Source of the DNA: Pseudomonadota bacterium | Lineage (GTDB): Bacteria > Myxococcota > Bradymonadia > UBA4248 | Assembly: GCA_017629415.1 (NCBI GenBank) | Contig: JAGBXG010000154.1 | Location: forward strand, 1 to 5,446 | Length of the DNA stretch: 5,446 nucleotides | Direction of reading: 5' to 3' | In this document: positions 1 to 5,310 of the stretch, piece by piece | How positions within the stretch are numbered: position 1 is the first letter of the stretch | Layout: each line of letters starts with the position of its first letter | Position numbers and translations under genes: made by a program | Notes under the pieces: generated by a model | Seen by the model: only the letters and a program-made list of their open reading frames with translations | Told to the model about the DNA's origin: nothing | Databases searched by the model: none

Positions 1-165
1 ACGGAAATACCGCCTTGTTGCATTATCTTTGTCCATTGGAGCATGGATACGCCCAGAAAGACTGGACTCTTCAAAGCTGCTATTTACCGTCCAAATGCTG
101 TCACATCCGGCCAAAGCCAGACTCAAAACAGCAGACAGAAGATATGTTTTAGGAACAATATTCAT
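1..165 (-). CDS. Putative lipoprotein, N-terminal 55 residues (runs off window)
   Basis: The first 55 codons of a gene reading out of the window. The product begins with a type II signal peptide: a short N-region with one lysine (K6), a hydrophobic stretch at about residues 8-19, and a lipobox L-A-G-C with the lipid-accepting cysteine at residue 21. In this family the signal is removed by lipoprotein signal peptidase and the protein is anchored by Cys21. The residue after the cysteine is Asp, which in enterobacteria favours inner-membrane retention; whether that rule holds here is unknown. The mature part is polar (Ser, Asp, Glu, Arg) and not recognisable. The ATG at 165 lacks a close ribosome binding site. 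An in-frame TTG at 192 has AAGGAA at 208-203, about 10 bases upstream, so the true N-terminus could be nine residues longer. It is separated from the upstream gene by a likely terminator and a hairpin cluster, so it is probably transcribed separately. Confidence 0.75.
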   Translation of the reverse strand, partial: MNIVPKTYLLSAVLSLALAGCDSIWTVNSSFEESSLSGRIHAPMDKDNATRRYFR

Positions 166-409: not shown

Positions 410-434
410 AAAAAAGAAATGATAAAATTATCAT
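410..434 (-). terminator. Likely intrinsic terminator of the rng-kinase operon (AT-rich stem)
   Basis: Read on the minus strand, ATGATA-ATTT-TATCAT (434-419) forms a six-base stem and is followed directly by TTC and then six Ts (415-410). The hairpin starts within the stop codon of the kinase-like gene. The stem is AT-rich and weak, but the order of stem then U-tract is correct for a minus-strand intrinsic terminator. The strong GC hairpin just beyond it might help stall polymerase or block exonucleases. Confidence 0.5.
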
Positions 435-3367
435 CATAAAGACAGGACTTTTTCAGTCCCATATTTCAGGCAAAGGTCATCCACGCGTTTAAGCACGGCT
501 TCACGTTGTTTCCAGAATTGCTCGAATCGTTTGGTTTCCTGCTCGGAGGCACCCGGGAAAAGCAGCTCAAATGTTTTGGTCTTATCGAGATTGCGCAGTG
601 TCTGAATGAAGCGCGGATTGAAACGTTCCACCATCATGAACCGTTCGTAAACTTTATCATTACTGTAAGTTGGGAAAGAAGCACCGTTATCGATAGATAT
701 GATGCGGCCATCCTTGAACTGACAGTTCACGCCCCACCATTCCGGCACCCCGGAAAACCGATCCCAGTTTCCGATGAGGAAATCGAAGGTGAGAACTTCG
801 GAAACCTGCGCGACCAGCTGTTTTGTCGTCAAGCCGGGCGATTGTTTTAAAAGTTCCGGGTATAGAATTTGCGTATTGCCTCGGCGTTTCAGCGCTGAAA
901 GTGCTTCTTCGAGGGGTTCAAATTCTTCAATAAAATTGTCCATCGACAGCCATGGCCGCCACATTGAAATCAATTCAATGGGAAAACGCGTGAAATCCGG
1001 CACCCAGTCTTTAAGCGTCCCATAGAAAAAGCGGCTGTTTTCTTCTTTTGTCGAAATCATATCCGCGAGATTCGGACGATATTTATCCCGTTTTTGGGCA
1101 GGTGCACGATTATAAAGTTTATGGAATAAATTGTATTCAATCCGTACCGGACGATTCCATGGAACATCAAAATCACAACTCAAAAGCTCGCAAAGCCGCC
1201 AAGCAGCGATTTCTGAACGATAATTGGACTGCAAACGTGTCTGATATGGCTTGAATGCCCCAATCGGCTTATCATCCTTCAACATTTTAAAGGTGACAGT
1301 TGAACCGCCACCCAGCGGCGAAACCATGTCACACATCGTTTCATCAAGCGTCACAGGCGGGCCGATAAAATGCGGATCTTTCGAGAATGATTGATAGTAC
1401 AAGTCTTTAATCGCGGCCTGTGCCTGAACTTCCGTCGGCGATTCAAGCACGATTTTTTGGGCATTTTTAAACTGTCCTGCCGCAATATAATCCTCAATCA
1501 ACCGCTTACGATGTGCCGGATTTTCAGCGAACATTTCATAAGCAAGTTCGAGATATGGCAGACGGCTTTCAGGGCTTGCCTGATGATTGATGCGCGTTTC
1601 TAGCCATGGTTCCATCCAGTTTTCAAACTCTGCAGCCTGATGCACGGTTAAAACAGCACCGACAATGGCAGAACCTATTTCTTCTTGTGTCGGCGGTGCT
1701 TTCATAGGCTCGACATTTCCCTGAAGCACAGGATCTGCTTTCTGCAAAAAGGGCAATTTTTCGTTCAATCCTGTCAAATGGAGGATTGCAACACCGCCGC
1801 CGATCAAAATAACGACAACGACTACCCAAATCAGCACAGTACTGGCACGGCTTTCCGTTTCGGTCACCATCATGGTCGGCGTATGCAAAGACTCCTGAAC
1901 TGGTGAACGATGACGATTTTTCATGGCCGCATTATCGACAGGCTGAGCATTCAGAATTTCTGCAAATTCCGGATGATCATGGATAGAAATCGGAATGGTC
2001 ATGCGGTCATCTAAATCTTTTTCTTCGGCATGAAGAGTCGGCACAACATCGGGCTGACGCAAAGGAATCGTCAGATTATCTCCATCCCCTGAATTCTTTA
2101 TCTTTTGAGCTTTTGCCTCTTTGGCAGCCTTTGCTCGCATGACCATTTGGCGCACTTCTTCCACGCCCTCCGGCTCCTGCTCACAAGTCCGATCCTCAAA
2201 GTCATCGTCATCATCTCCATCACCGATAATTTCCGGATACGATGTCAACTTAGATTCCGGCAAAATGGCACTGAGTTCCTGAATATCGAGGATATTATTC
2301 GACACTTCGGCATGTGCACCAAGATGTTCAAATATCCCCTGCTCTTTCAAACGATCCATTGCGCTGACGGGTTCTGCAGGCTGCGGACGCTGAAGTTTTA
2401 CAGATCCCTGACGAATCACTCTTGAAGTCGGTTTGGTATTTAAATTTTGGGCTTCCAATGCTTCACGCACGCGTTCAGCCACACTCCCGAGATCCGTTGT
2501 CGCCGCAGTTTCTAAGAAAATCTCATTGGCTTCGCGTCCAAAATCATGCGTCTGTACACGTTCCATCCGTTCCATCTCGGATTGAAGCTGATTCATCGGA
2601 TTGTTTTCCGGCAATTGTTCAGCCGCTTGTGCCTCTGTTCGACGCATTCCCTCCGCTGAAGGCACATTGTCATTGTTTTGAACAACCTCCATGCTTCCCG
2701 ATGCCACCATCATGAACTGCTGCGATGACAAATCCTGAATTTCGCCATCATCGAGCAAATTGGATGTACTTGCAGCCACGCTATCAGACGTTTTTTTTGC
2801 CGCAGACACCCCCTCTTGCGATTCGTAAGTACGCAGAGCCGCAAATTCCAGTGTTGCTGCAGGCCGAGAAGGCCAAAAGTCCACCTCATTTTTGTCCGGA
2901 ATCACGCCCAAATCTGCAAGACTCTGACGCGTACTCGTCATGGTTGCATCATCTTCGTCGTCTTCATCATTGTCCAAACCGCCGGGCAAATCATCAGACT
3001 TCAGGCTTCGCAAAACTCCGGAATGCTTCAAAAGCTCATGTTGCTTTGTTTCTTCTCCGGCCTCCATATCTTCATCTGAAAGACTGTCCAAAGATTCAGA
3101 GCCGCTGAATTTGTCCAAAGTCATGGCATTTGAGAAACTTTCAGGAACCATTTCGGGCAATGTGCGATCATAAGTCGTGGTGGACTCTCCCACTTCCTCT
3201 TCTTCGTCATCATCCAAATGCGCATAAGCCTCGAGATCGTCCGGATCGAACTTCGACACAAGATTGCCGGATCCTAAAAAAGACAGCTTTTCCGACTCGA
3301 GACGACGCAAACCTGCTTCGATACTCGGCTGATAATCCGCTTTTGGTCTCTGCCTGTTCTCATCCAT
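434..3367 (-). CDS. Membrane-anchored Fam20C/Four-jointed-like atypical kinase
   Basis: A 977-aa protein. Residues 1-500 are mostly low-complexity and acidic, with Asp/Glu runs near 52-58, 132-140 and 385-389 and a short coiled-coil-like Lys/Ala/Arg patch near 403-424. One hydrophobic segment (about 509-533, rich in Val/Ile/Gly) spans the membrane; the basic cluster KNRHR (483-487) before it suggests N-in/C-out. Residues about 565-665 are helical and TPR-like. Residues about 688-977 resemble secretory-pathway kinases of the Fam20C/Four-jointed type: G-A-F-K706-P (ATP-binding Lys), E719-I-A-A-W-R-L (helix C Glu), D-F-L-I-G-N-W-D869-R (catalytic loop) and I-D893-N-G (metal-binding Asp). All key residues are present, so activity is plausible; the substrate is unknown. 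HipA- or PI3K-like kinases share parts of this pattern, but the FKP, EIAA and DNG context fits Fam20C best. The start is the only suitable ATG, with AAGGAG 11 bases upstream. It lies 48 bases after rng and is probably co-transcribed. Fold assignment is fairly secure; function is inferred. Confidence 0.82.
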   Translation of the reverse strand: MDENRQRPKADYQPSIEAGLRRLESEKLSFLGSGNLVSKFDPDDLEAYAHLDDDEEEEVGESTTTYDRTLPEMVPESFSNAMTLDKFSGSESLDSLSDEDMEAGEETKQHELLKHSGVLRSLKSDDLPGGLDNDEDDEDDATMTSTRQSLADLGVIPDKNEVDFWPSRPAATLEFAALRTYESQEGVSAAKKTSDSVAASTSNLLDDGEIQDLSSQQFMMVASGSMEVVQNNDNVPSAEGMRRTEAQAAEQLPENNPMNQLQSEMERMERVQTHDFGREANEIFLETAATTDLGSVAERVREALEAQNLNTKPTSRVIRQGSVKLQRPQPAEPVSAMDRLKEQGIFEHLGAHAEVSNNILDIQELSAILPESKLTSYPEIIGDGDDDDDFEDRTCEQEPEGVEEVRQMVMRAKAAKEAKAQKIKNSGDGDNLTIPLRQPDVVPTLHAEEKDLDDRMTIPISIHDHPEFAEILNAQPVDNAAMKNRHRSPVQESLHTPTMMVTETESRASTVLIWVVVVVILIGGGVAILHLTGLNEKLPFLQKADPVLQGNVEPMKAPPTQEEIGSAIVGAVLTVHQAAEFENWMEPWLETRINHQASPESRLPYLELAYEMFAENPAHRKRLIEDYIAAGQFKNAQKIVLESPTEVQAQAAIKDLYYQSFSKDPHFIGPPVTLDETMCDMVSPLGGGSTVTFKMLKDDKPIGAFKPYQTRLQSNYRSEIAAWRLCELLSCDFDVPWNRPVRIEYNLFHKLYNRAPAQKRDKYRPNLADMISTKEENSRFFYGTLKDWVPDFTRFPIELISMWRPWLSMDNFIEEFEPLEEALSALKRRGNTQILYPELLKQSPGLTTKQLVAQVSEVLTFDFLIGNWDRFSGVPEWWGVNCQFKDGRIISIDNGASFPTYSNDKVYERFMMVERFNPRFIQTLRNLDKTKTFELLFPGASEQETKRFEQFWKQREAVLKRVDDLCLKYGTEKVLSL

Positions 3368-3415: not shown

Positions 3416-4930
3416 TTAATCTTCGACGTAGACTTCGTACTGCTCGTGATGCAGCTGCGGACTAGCATGAATTTCAATCGTGCGACGAATTTTAGATTCC
3501 AGTTCTTCAATCGCTGATCTTTCTTCATCAAACAGCATTTGGGCAACATCAGGATGAGCAATCACGGTCAACTTTTTGCCTCTTGTGACGGCGGCTTCAC
3601 GCTGAAGTTCGCGCAGAATTTCATAAGCCACACTCTGACGGCTGCGGATATATCCCTTACCTTCACAGTAAAAACACGGCTCACACAAACACTGAATCAA
3701 GCTTTCGCGAATGCGTTTGCGCGTCATTTCAACAAGACCAAATTCACTGATCTTCAAAATATTGGTTTTAGCTTTATCTTGCGCCAAGGCTTCGCCCAAT
3801 GCCGCATAAACCTTTTCACGGTTTGAAGCACGTTCCATATCGATAAAGTCGATGATCACAATGCCCCCGATATTCCGAATGCGCAGCTGATAGGCAATTT
3901 CACGTACTGCTTCAAGGTTGATTTGCAAAATCGTATCTTCCAACGAATGCTTGCCAACAAACTTGCCCGTATTCACGTCAATGGCCGTCAAAGCTTCGGC
4001 CGTATCAATGACGAGATAACCGCCGCTTCGCAGCCAAACTTTACGCGCTAAAGCCCGGGATACTTCGATTTCAATGCCATAAGCATCAAAAATCGGATCC
4101 AAACCCTGATAATATTTGATGCTGTTCACGTGATCCGGCATAAATTTTTTCACAAATTCTCGAATACGTTCATACTGTTCAGCATTATCGGTAATCACCT
4201 CATCGATGCCGTCTGTCATCAAATCTCGGACAGCTCTTAAGGGTAAATCGAGTTCTTCATAAAGCAAAGCCGGTGCTTTCTGACGTTCAAAATCGCCCAA
4301 AATATCGCGCCATAAACTCGTCAGATATTTAAAATCTTCGTCAATTTGCTGTTCGGTCGCCCCTTCTGAAGCCGTCCGTACAATAATGCCCGTGCCGGCT
4401 TGCCGTCTTTCATTGACCAAATCACGTAAACGACTTCGTTCCGCCTCACTGCTGATTCTACGGCTTACCCCGATATGATCGAACGTCGGCATGTGAACTA
4501 AAAAACGTCCAGGCAACGAAATATGGCTCGTAATACGCGCCCCTTTTGTGCCAATCGCTTCCTTCGCCACCTGAACCAAAATCTCCTGACCTTGATGCAA
4601 CCGTTCTTCAATCGGACCTACCGGTCTGTTCTGCCCGCGAGACTGCGGAATTTCAGGATCATCCACCGCATCGGCATCGACTTCCTGCATGTATGCTTCA
4701 TGCTTGTTATAGACATCATAAACATACAAAAATGCCGCTTTTTCCTGCCCGATATCGACAAATGCCGCCTGCATGCCCGGCAGTACGCGTAAAACACGCC
4801 CTTTATAAATATTGCCTGCCGTGCCGCGTTCGCAGTTTCTTTCCAAAAAAAACTCCGAAATCACCCCATTTTCAACGAGCGCTACTCGCGTTTCATGACT
4901 CGTTGTATTCAATACCAAAATATTGGCCAT
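3416..4930 (-). CDS. rng: Ribonuclease G (RNase E/G family endoribonuclease)
   Basis: A 504-aa cytoplasmic endoribonuclease that cuts single-stranded, AU-rich RNA and in relatives matures the 5' end of 16S rRNA and helps mRNA decay. The N-terminus NTTSHETRVALVENG is typical of the family. An S1 RNA-binding domain covers about residues 35-130 (GNIYKGRV...PGMQAAFVDIG). The catalytic domain carries A-I-D318-V-N320-T-G and I-I-D361-F-I-D-M, matching the Mg-binding residues of RNase E/G. The zinc-link cysteines are C419-F-Y-C422, followed by EGKG. There is no long C-terminal degradosome scaffold, so RNase G is a better name than RNase E. The ATG at 4930 is chosen because AAGGA sits seven bases upstream; a TTG at 4945 would add five residues but would overlap that site. 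The next gene starts 48 bases downstream. No recognisable promoter was found; a TAAAAT at 5011-5006 lacks a -35 partner. Confidence 0.96.
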   Translation of the reverse strand: MANILVLNTTSHETRVALVENGVISEFFLERNCERGTAGNIYKGRVLRVLPGMQAAFVDIGQEKAAFLYVYDVYNKHEAYMQEVDADAVDDPEIPQSRGQNRPVGPIEERLHQGQEILVQVAKEAIGTKGARITSHISLPGRFLVHMPTFDHIGVSRRISSEAERSRLRDLVNERRQAGTGIIVRTASEGATEQQIDEDFKYLTSLWRDILGDFERQKAPALLYEELDLPLRAVRDLMTDGIDEVITDNAEQYERIREFVKKFMPDHVNSIKYYQGLDPIFDAYGIEIEVSRALARKVWLRSGGYLVIDTAEALTAIDVNTGKFVGKHSLEDTILQINLEAVREIAYQLRIRNIGGIVIIDFIDMERASNREKVYAALGEALAQDKAKTNILKISEFGLVEMTRKRIRESLIQCLCEPCFYCEGKGYIRSRQSVAYEILRELQREAAVTRGKKLTVIAHPDVAQMLFDEERSAIEELESKIRRTIEIHASPQLHHEQYEVYVED

Positions 4931-5112: not shown

Positions 5113-5136
5113 GCTATCGGTCTGCGACCGATACGC
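5113..5136 (+). repeat. Bulged extragenic hairpin, copy 4
   Basis: GC (5113-5114) plus TATCGGTC (5115-5122) pairs with GACCGATA (5126-5133) plus GC (5135-5136), with C5134 bulged and a TGC loop. It begins nine bases after copy 3 ends. The inner stem CGGTC/GACCG is unlike the other copies, yet pairing and bulge are preserved. Confidence 0.7.
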
Positions 5137-5140
5137 GTCG

Positions 5141-5310
5141 CCAGTTTATGTTGTGGGACTCCGCAATGCCGCTCTCACCGACAAAGAAAAAGTGAAAATC
5201 ATTCCGACCGAAGTCCCTAAGCCCCCCAAACCGGAGACCTGTAGCGTAAAAGGAGAAGCAACGACGAATAAAACATTCCTGTTCAATGACAAAGAAGTTC
5301 ATCTTTTGAA
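5141..5310 (+). pseudogene. Possible coding remnant on the plus strand
   Basis: One plus-strand frame here reads as a plausible protein, Lys/Glu/Val-rich with a Pro-Lys stretch (KPPKPET) followed by NKTFLFNDKEVHLLNS, and its codons mostly begin with a purine. There is no ATG or convincing ribosome binding site; only GTG codons at 5153 and 5192 are available. The frame stays open to the window end, but beyond about 5310 its codons lose the coding-like pattern and the minus-strand frame takes over. It could be a decayed gene fragment, a rearrangement scar or chance. A loose resemblance to PAAR-like DUF4150 segments (an ND-K-x-V-x-L-x-N-S pattern) was noticed but is too short to rely on. Confidence 0.22.

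Follow-up and report, generated by a model that had tools for sequence, protein, structure and literature searches.

A Fam20-like kinase domain in a predicted transmembrane protein of Myxococcota

Animals are well known to phosphorylate proteins outside the cytosol, Fam20C being an example, but such phosphorylation is hardly described in bacteria in the literature that we searched, and the periplasm would be an unusual workplace for a bacterial kinase. The kinase-like proteins HipA/HipT and CtkA are cytosolic toxins or a secreted effector. In the text of PMC12189002, the spore-coat kinase CotH is given as a kinase of bacteria that resembles Fam20C, and is said to be without a DFG-type metal motif. 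Here we describe a 5,446-nucleotide stretch of DNA, hereafter the window (contig JAGBXG010000154.1; GTDB lineage Myxococcota, Bradymonadia, UBA4248), whose minus strand carries an open reading frame (ORF; 434..3367) for a kinase-like transmembrane protein of 977 amino acids (aa). We consider it probable that this protein is a transmembrane Fam20-type kinase with its catalytic domain in the periplasm and its N-terminal arm in the cytosol. The mainly open literature yielded no description of a bacterial extracytoplasmic Fam20-like family, although the review by Gradowski et al. 2020 may mention one; the main text of PMC5865150, our source on the Fam20 enzymes of C. elegans and hydra, contains no word beginning with 'bacteri'. 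The fold, motif conservation, architecture, lipoprotein-type signals, paralogues and gene neighbours reported below were computed, and all genes and protein features of the window lie on its minus strand.

Fold and conserved residues of the kinase domain

The C-terminal part of the protein, residues 672-977 (434..1354), forms a Fam20-like kinase domain according to its structural model, fold matches and a sequence profile. An AlphaFold2 (AF2) model of residues 560-977 reached a predicted local distance difference test (pLDDT) score of 95.1 and a predicted template modelling (pTM) score of 0.92, and in the fold comparison of the domain model Foldseek ranks 1-16 and VIA ranks 1-9 were all Fam20. 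A non-kinase fold was rejected on the model and the fold comparison. Structure prediction, which the initial annotation had proposed as a check, thus gave a kinase-like fold nearest to Fam20; the domain placed at 434-1300 in that annotation is real but somewhat longer, spanning about 434-1354, with the first kinase strand starting from residue 672 in the model.

One relative, P0001, is almost the same as the protein over residues 560-977, and another 72 have 32-60% identity to it there. Conservation was counted in an alignment of 176 rows (the window protein and 175 database relatives), taking at each position the rows with a letter there; alignment A1 took 101 of the 175 relatives, giving a 102-row profile with the window protein, and alignment A2 took 35. 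Using the 102-row profile, Fam20C in the PDB was matched at E 1.5e-6. The single sequence matched Fam20C weakly (PDB Fam20C, E 0.0039) and Pfam PF06702 at E 0.0092, under the cut-off.

The beta3 Lys, helix-C Glu, catalytic Asp and metal-binding Asp of Fam20 kinases are all matched in the domain. Indeed, the motifs FKP (residues 705-707), EIAAWRL (719-725), DFLIGNWDR (862-870) and IDNG (892-895) each occur once, and K706, E719, D869 and D893 are located in the translation exactly where the initial annotation had put them. K706 (1250..1252), on a strand at 141-148 in model numbering, is Lys in 173/174 rows, and E719 (1211..1213), on a helix at 157-170, is Glu in 174/174. The putative catalytic Asp of NWDR, D869 (761..763), and the putative metal-binding Asp of DNG, D893 (689..691), align with NMDR and DNG of Fam20C, respectively, and each is Asp in 175/175 rows. 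With these four residues near-invariant, the motif pattern goes beyond chance. A glycine-rich loop, G686-G688 (1304..1312; Gly in 164/167, 173/173 and 163/173 rows), aligns near the SGG of Fam20C in the profile alignment.

Other kinase-like systems compared less well. Type II phosphatidylinositol 4-kinases (PI4K) were matched by the profile only at E 2.8, as against the value given above for Fam20C. CotH had a lower fold Z than Fam20 and, as with HipA/HipT and CtkA, no entry in the profile-search output; the window protein also differs from CotH in its metal motif, DNG being present where CotH is said to be without a DFG-type one. Fold scores under those of Fam20, and the absence of both from the profile output, which by itself is not exclusion, make membership in the HipA or CotH groups less likely.

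Departures from Fam20 kinases and spread of the family

The usual helix-C Glu corresponds to Glu218 in C. elegans Fam20, according to PMC5865150, which describes another position, Glu213 (Glu306 in the human enzyme), as essential for catalysis in Fam20C and replaced in the pseudokinase Fam20A. The spacer from the beta3 Lys to the helix-C Glu counts 12 residues in 173/174 family rows, 13 fewer than the 25 of human Fam20C; five residues ahead of E719, an acid stands in 11/174 rows, and acids elsewhere in the spacer occur in 53/174 rows at scattered positions. By the profile alignment, the short spacer and this rarely acidic position, E719 is the ordinary helix-C Glu, the counterpart of Glu218, and the Fam20-specific essential loop Glu is without a conserved counterpart in the bacterial family. 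The initial annotation's 'all catalytic residues' therefore stands for K706, E719, D869 and D893 but is too strong with regard to the loop Glu.

A further difference concerns the residue after Asp-Arg, His in Fam20. The Phe reported in its place after D869-R870 is seen in the window protein, and the 175 family rows have F in 150, Y in 22, M in 3 and His in none, which makes it a family trait. According to PMC5865150, this His bonds the xylose substrate in a Fam20B-like enzyme of hydra, and the change may therefore concern substrate more than catalysis. The same source reports four disulfides in hydra Fam20 and Fam20C, whereas Cys prevails in the family rows at three positions only, those of C726, C731 and C882. 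The TPR-like part and the long arm likewise set the window protein apart from animal Fam20 (Fam20C, Fam20B, Fam20A). Finally, it scores 17.8 bits against the curated PF06702 cut-off of 26.8; the distant relatives P0170-P0175 are all under this cut-off too (best P0172, at 25.7 bits), and the newer precomputed Pfam of the protein database gives PF06702 to P0171-P0173. Being below the Pfam cut-off and without loop Glu or His, the window protein would, by the tests applied, be Fam20-like yet outside Fam20 proper.

A scan of genome contigs returned 73 loci of the kinase family, with myxobacterial groups, Deltaproteobacteria and Proteobacteria among the taxa; beyond the phylum, the search used three degenerate peptide patterns on genome contigs, by which distant relatives could be missed. 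Genomes were also sampled from the phylum of G001, and a match was found in 116 of the 377 (11 of the 116 already reached through the loci), which contradicts the earlier view that such a protein is uncommon; the count is possibly low, with at most four candidates scored per genome, and a few of its matches, weaker than E 1e-4, could reflect the TPR part alone. Mechanical ORF calling recovered a kinase ORF from 59/73 loci, the others being L013, L037, L039, L040, L042, L047, L051, L055, L056, L062-L064, L067 and L071; neighbours were surveyed in 33 of the loci L001-L034, and the tree was built from 58 loci together with the window. Twelve genomes were reached through the loci. Those of L001-L005 and L007, six in all, each have 2 to 4 kinase matches, one of which has an open frame longer than 700 aa; other genomes differ, with two such frames in G007 and two in G009. 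Paralogues in related genomes share the kinase domain, and many are predicted lipoproteins. The relatives P0058-P0062 are fusions of the kinase domain with a sulfatase-modifying-factor domain (FGE, PF03781).

Membrane topology, the N-terminal arm and alternative explanations

The membrane anchor attributed to the 977-aa protein was borne out: a single transmembrane helix at residues 505-531 (1775..1855) is indicated by hydropathy (mean 3.08 across the 19 residues starting at 511) and by a helix in the full-length model. TPR-like helices at residues 561-662 (1382..1687; models, and Pfam TPR_19 at E 0.0075, below cut-off) stand directly N-terminal to the kinase domain in the model. On the other side of the membrane helix lies the arm, residues 1-504 (1856..3367), which is acidic (D+E 21% and K+R 10% in residues 1-510) and, as the initial annotation had it, about 500 residues long and mostly disordered, with pLDDT below 50 across most of its length and a helix at 16-30 in the full-length model (A2, 36 rows). 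No signal peptide was found ahead of the 510-residue acidic arm of the window protein. The simplest topology for a long acidic N-terminal arm that has no signal peptide is arm in and kinase out; the kinase domain thus probably lies outside the inner membrane and the arm in the cytosol, a point that the initial annotation had not raised. One strong internal hydrophobic segment was called in 60 of the 67 long forms (at least 700 aa, window protein included).

Relatives of 400-560 aa carry a lipoprotein-type signal in 71/87 cases, or 32/43 after thinning at 60% identity, as called by a custom regular expression and hydropathy test and not by SignalP. The background rate was 74/592 among other ORFs of at least 200 aa in the kinase loci, and 43/237 when limited to Met-start ORFs. 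Among the 16 short relatives without such a call, the N-terminal 60 residues include a hydrophobic stretch in 15, and P0066 has one only further in. Many ORFs of the distant subfamily (25 tree rows) start with a signal peptide or lipobox, but several have a doubtful start or no such signal. Within the kinase domain, C726 and C731 (1175..1192) form a possible disulfide pair: both are Cys in 162 of 173 rows, neither in 9 and a single one in 2, a co-conservation that would be expected of such a pair.

Conservation along the arm is uneven, with the peptide at residues 20-31 and stretches from 36, 336, 352 and 365 standing out. The most conserved stretch is the N-terminal peptide (3224..3367), with GLRRLESEKLSFL at residues 19-31, which recurs as GLxRLExEKLxFL or a close form in 40/67 long forms; a second conserved stretch covers residues 336-372 (2252..2362). 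These short stretches may represent docking motifs. A zinc-ribbon-like pattern is found in 43/67 long forms and is missing from the window protein itself. GltJ/AgmX-type myxobacterial membrane proteins, which combine a zinc ribbon, a disordered arm, a membrane helix and a periplasmic domain but no kinase domain, call the kinase long forms to mind in layout only. An N-terminal domain common to other proteins was considered and rejected: in six genomes, the sole strong match of the N-terminal 60 residues was the long kinase frame, all others being weak (E 0.34-0.78). An EAD5 match in the arm (E 0.053, below cut-off) was set aside.

Taken as a transmembrane Fam20-type kinase, the protein would have its N-terminal 500 residues in the cytosol. 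They would form an acidic and largely disordered arm, with the zinc-ribbon-like pattern at its head in many relatives and with a few conserved short motifs, and this arm probably docks a cytosolic partner. One helix would span the inner membrane, and the TPR-like part outside it would probably bind a substrate or partner and present it to the kinase domain. There, K706 and E719 would hold the nucleotide, D893 the metal, and D869 would act as base, the expected outcome being transfer of phosphate onto envelope proteins or glycans. The membrane-spanning form would let the cytosolic partner act on the periplasmic catalytic domain. The outward topology of the long form, the disulfide and kinase activity are predictions in this scheme; what it says of substrate, donor supply, regulation and the role of the arm is guesswork.

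Several points weigh against this scheme, the main one being the phosphate donor: the periplasm is not known to contain ATP, so the supply of a donor needs explaining. Fam20C is in a comparable position in the Golgi, to which ATP comes by import. The sub-threshold PF06702 score and the missing loop Glu count against a Fam20-type kinase as well, and the conservation counts are preselected, as the relatives were all retrieved by similarity to the window's domain region. The long-form topology is deduced from hydropathy, the missing signal peptide and homology to predicted lipoproteins, and the charges flanking the helix, near balance (-1 before and +1 after, over 15 residues), are of no help. 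The lipobox rate of the background is lowered by false ORFs, which are surely among those that the mechanical calling gave. The joint loss of the two cysteines weighs less than its count, because six of the nine rows concerned are the single branch P0170-P0175, leaving few separate losses.

Placing the arm outside and the kinase in the cytosol, with its ATP, would remove the donor problem, and the flanking charges favour neither orientation. Such a reversed long form is very improbable, given the lack of a signal peptide ahead of the arm, the lipoprotein-type signals of most short relatives sharing the domain, and the co-conserved C726/C731 pair; zinc-ribbon-like N-termini, usually cytosolic, also count against it. 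An ATP-free periplasm could alternatively mean that the enzyme uses another donor or transfers a group other than phosphate, such as AMP. The text of PMC10870513 describes two kinase-like folds of this sort, SelO, which AMPylates, and SidJ, which glutamylates, and the missing loop Glu would fit; the near-invariant Lys, Glu, catalytic Asp and metal Asp in their usual order nevertheless make this unlikely. Fam20A is a pseudokinase in part through replacement of the loop acid (PMC5865150, in the text cited above), and the absence of this acid would suit a catalytically dead scaffold or sensor too, but a dead enzyme need not keep four canonical residues near-invariant across distant relatives, and we regard this as decidedly unlikely. 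Somewhat unlikely, finally, is an extracytoplasmic glycan or lipid kinase, akin to Fam20B or PI4K, in place of a protein kinase: the xylose-contacting His of the hydra enzyme is never His in the bacterial family, the profile prefers Fam20 to PI4K, and the TPR-like part suggests a protein partner.

Beyond the window, we tentatively sketch a wider picture, possible though doubtful, in which Myxococcota-type bacteria phosphorylate their envelope from the inside out, by means of an arm-steered Fam20-type kinase, lipoprotein kinases, secreted phosphatases next to some of these that reverse the reaction, and a periplasmic supply of nucleotide donor that has gone unnoticed; the family and the animal secretory kinases could then share an ancestor. 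A family with both predicted lipoprotein and predicted membrane-spanning forms would make phosphorylation of bacterial envelope proteins, and its phosphate source, testable. Studies of how Fam20 arose would also gain a bacterial group for comparison, with a domain that keeps the ordinary Lys-Glu pair and does without the Fam20 loop Glu.

Gene neighbours

On its minus strand, the window holds an rng-like gene, the 977-aa ORF and the start of a lipoprotein gene, in this order. The upstream neighbour, ribonuclease G-like rng (3416..4930), matches RNase_E_G at E 3.2e-107; its product is above the cut-off of TIGR00757 Rne/Rng and scores 536.7 bits with the ribonuclease G equivalog, below the cut-off of 594. 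Within the window's clade (L001-L008), rng lies directly upstream of the kinase gene in six of eight loci (L001-L005 and L007); in L006 the kinase gene is cut by the start of the contig, and no rng is present in L008 (488 aa). An RNase link as a family-wide rule was rejected, rng being present in 6/73 loci only, all of the window's clade; none was found in the available upstream DNA of long-form loci such as L009, L012, L022, L029, L030 and L033. The downstream gene, cut by the window end (1..165), encodes a lipobox, LAGC, and a stretch, SFEESSLSGR, that looks similar by eye to the lipoproteins encoded downstream in L001-L003 and L005-L007. In six of the eight loci (not L004 or L008), a lipoprotein gene followed by a gene of about 500 codons lies downstream.

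Two kinase clades are found near ribonuclease genes, the window's clade with an RNase G-like gene and a lipoprotein clade with an RNase II-type gene (L010, L015, L016, L019, L024-L026 and L031). This second clade comprises 9 tree rows; in 8 of them the RNase II-type gene lies upstream at a distance of at most three ORFs, and in 7 a prepilin peptidase gene lies downstream. Pfam gave the names of these gene families in L024, and homology those in the other loci; a third clade has 6 tree rows. For the proximity of ribonuclease and kinase genes we offer nothing beyond shared operons as explanation.

Directly upstream of the kinase gene, L009 has a purple-acid-phosphatase-type gene (5973-7739) and L020 its homologue (7676-9640), with 69 and 7 bases, respectively, from phosphatase to kinase start. 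These two cases, among the 59 loci with a kinase ORF, are possible kinase-phosphatase pairs. Short intergenic inverted repeats flank the rng-kinase pair of the window on either side (287-408 and 5115-5217); the repeat at 388-408 was rejected as a terminator, as its T run precedes the hairpin on the kinase strand. In L001, a predicted lipoprotein (3589-5835, minus strand) contains nine copies of the Cys-rich peptide ECPNDCTDGVC.
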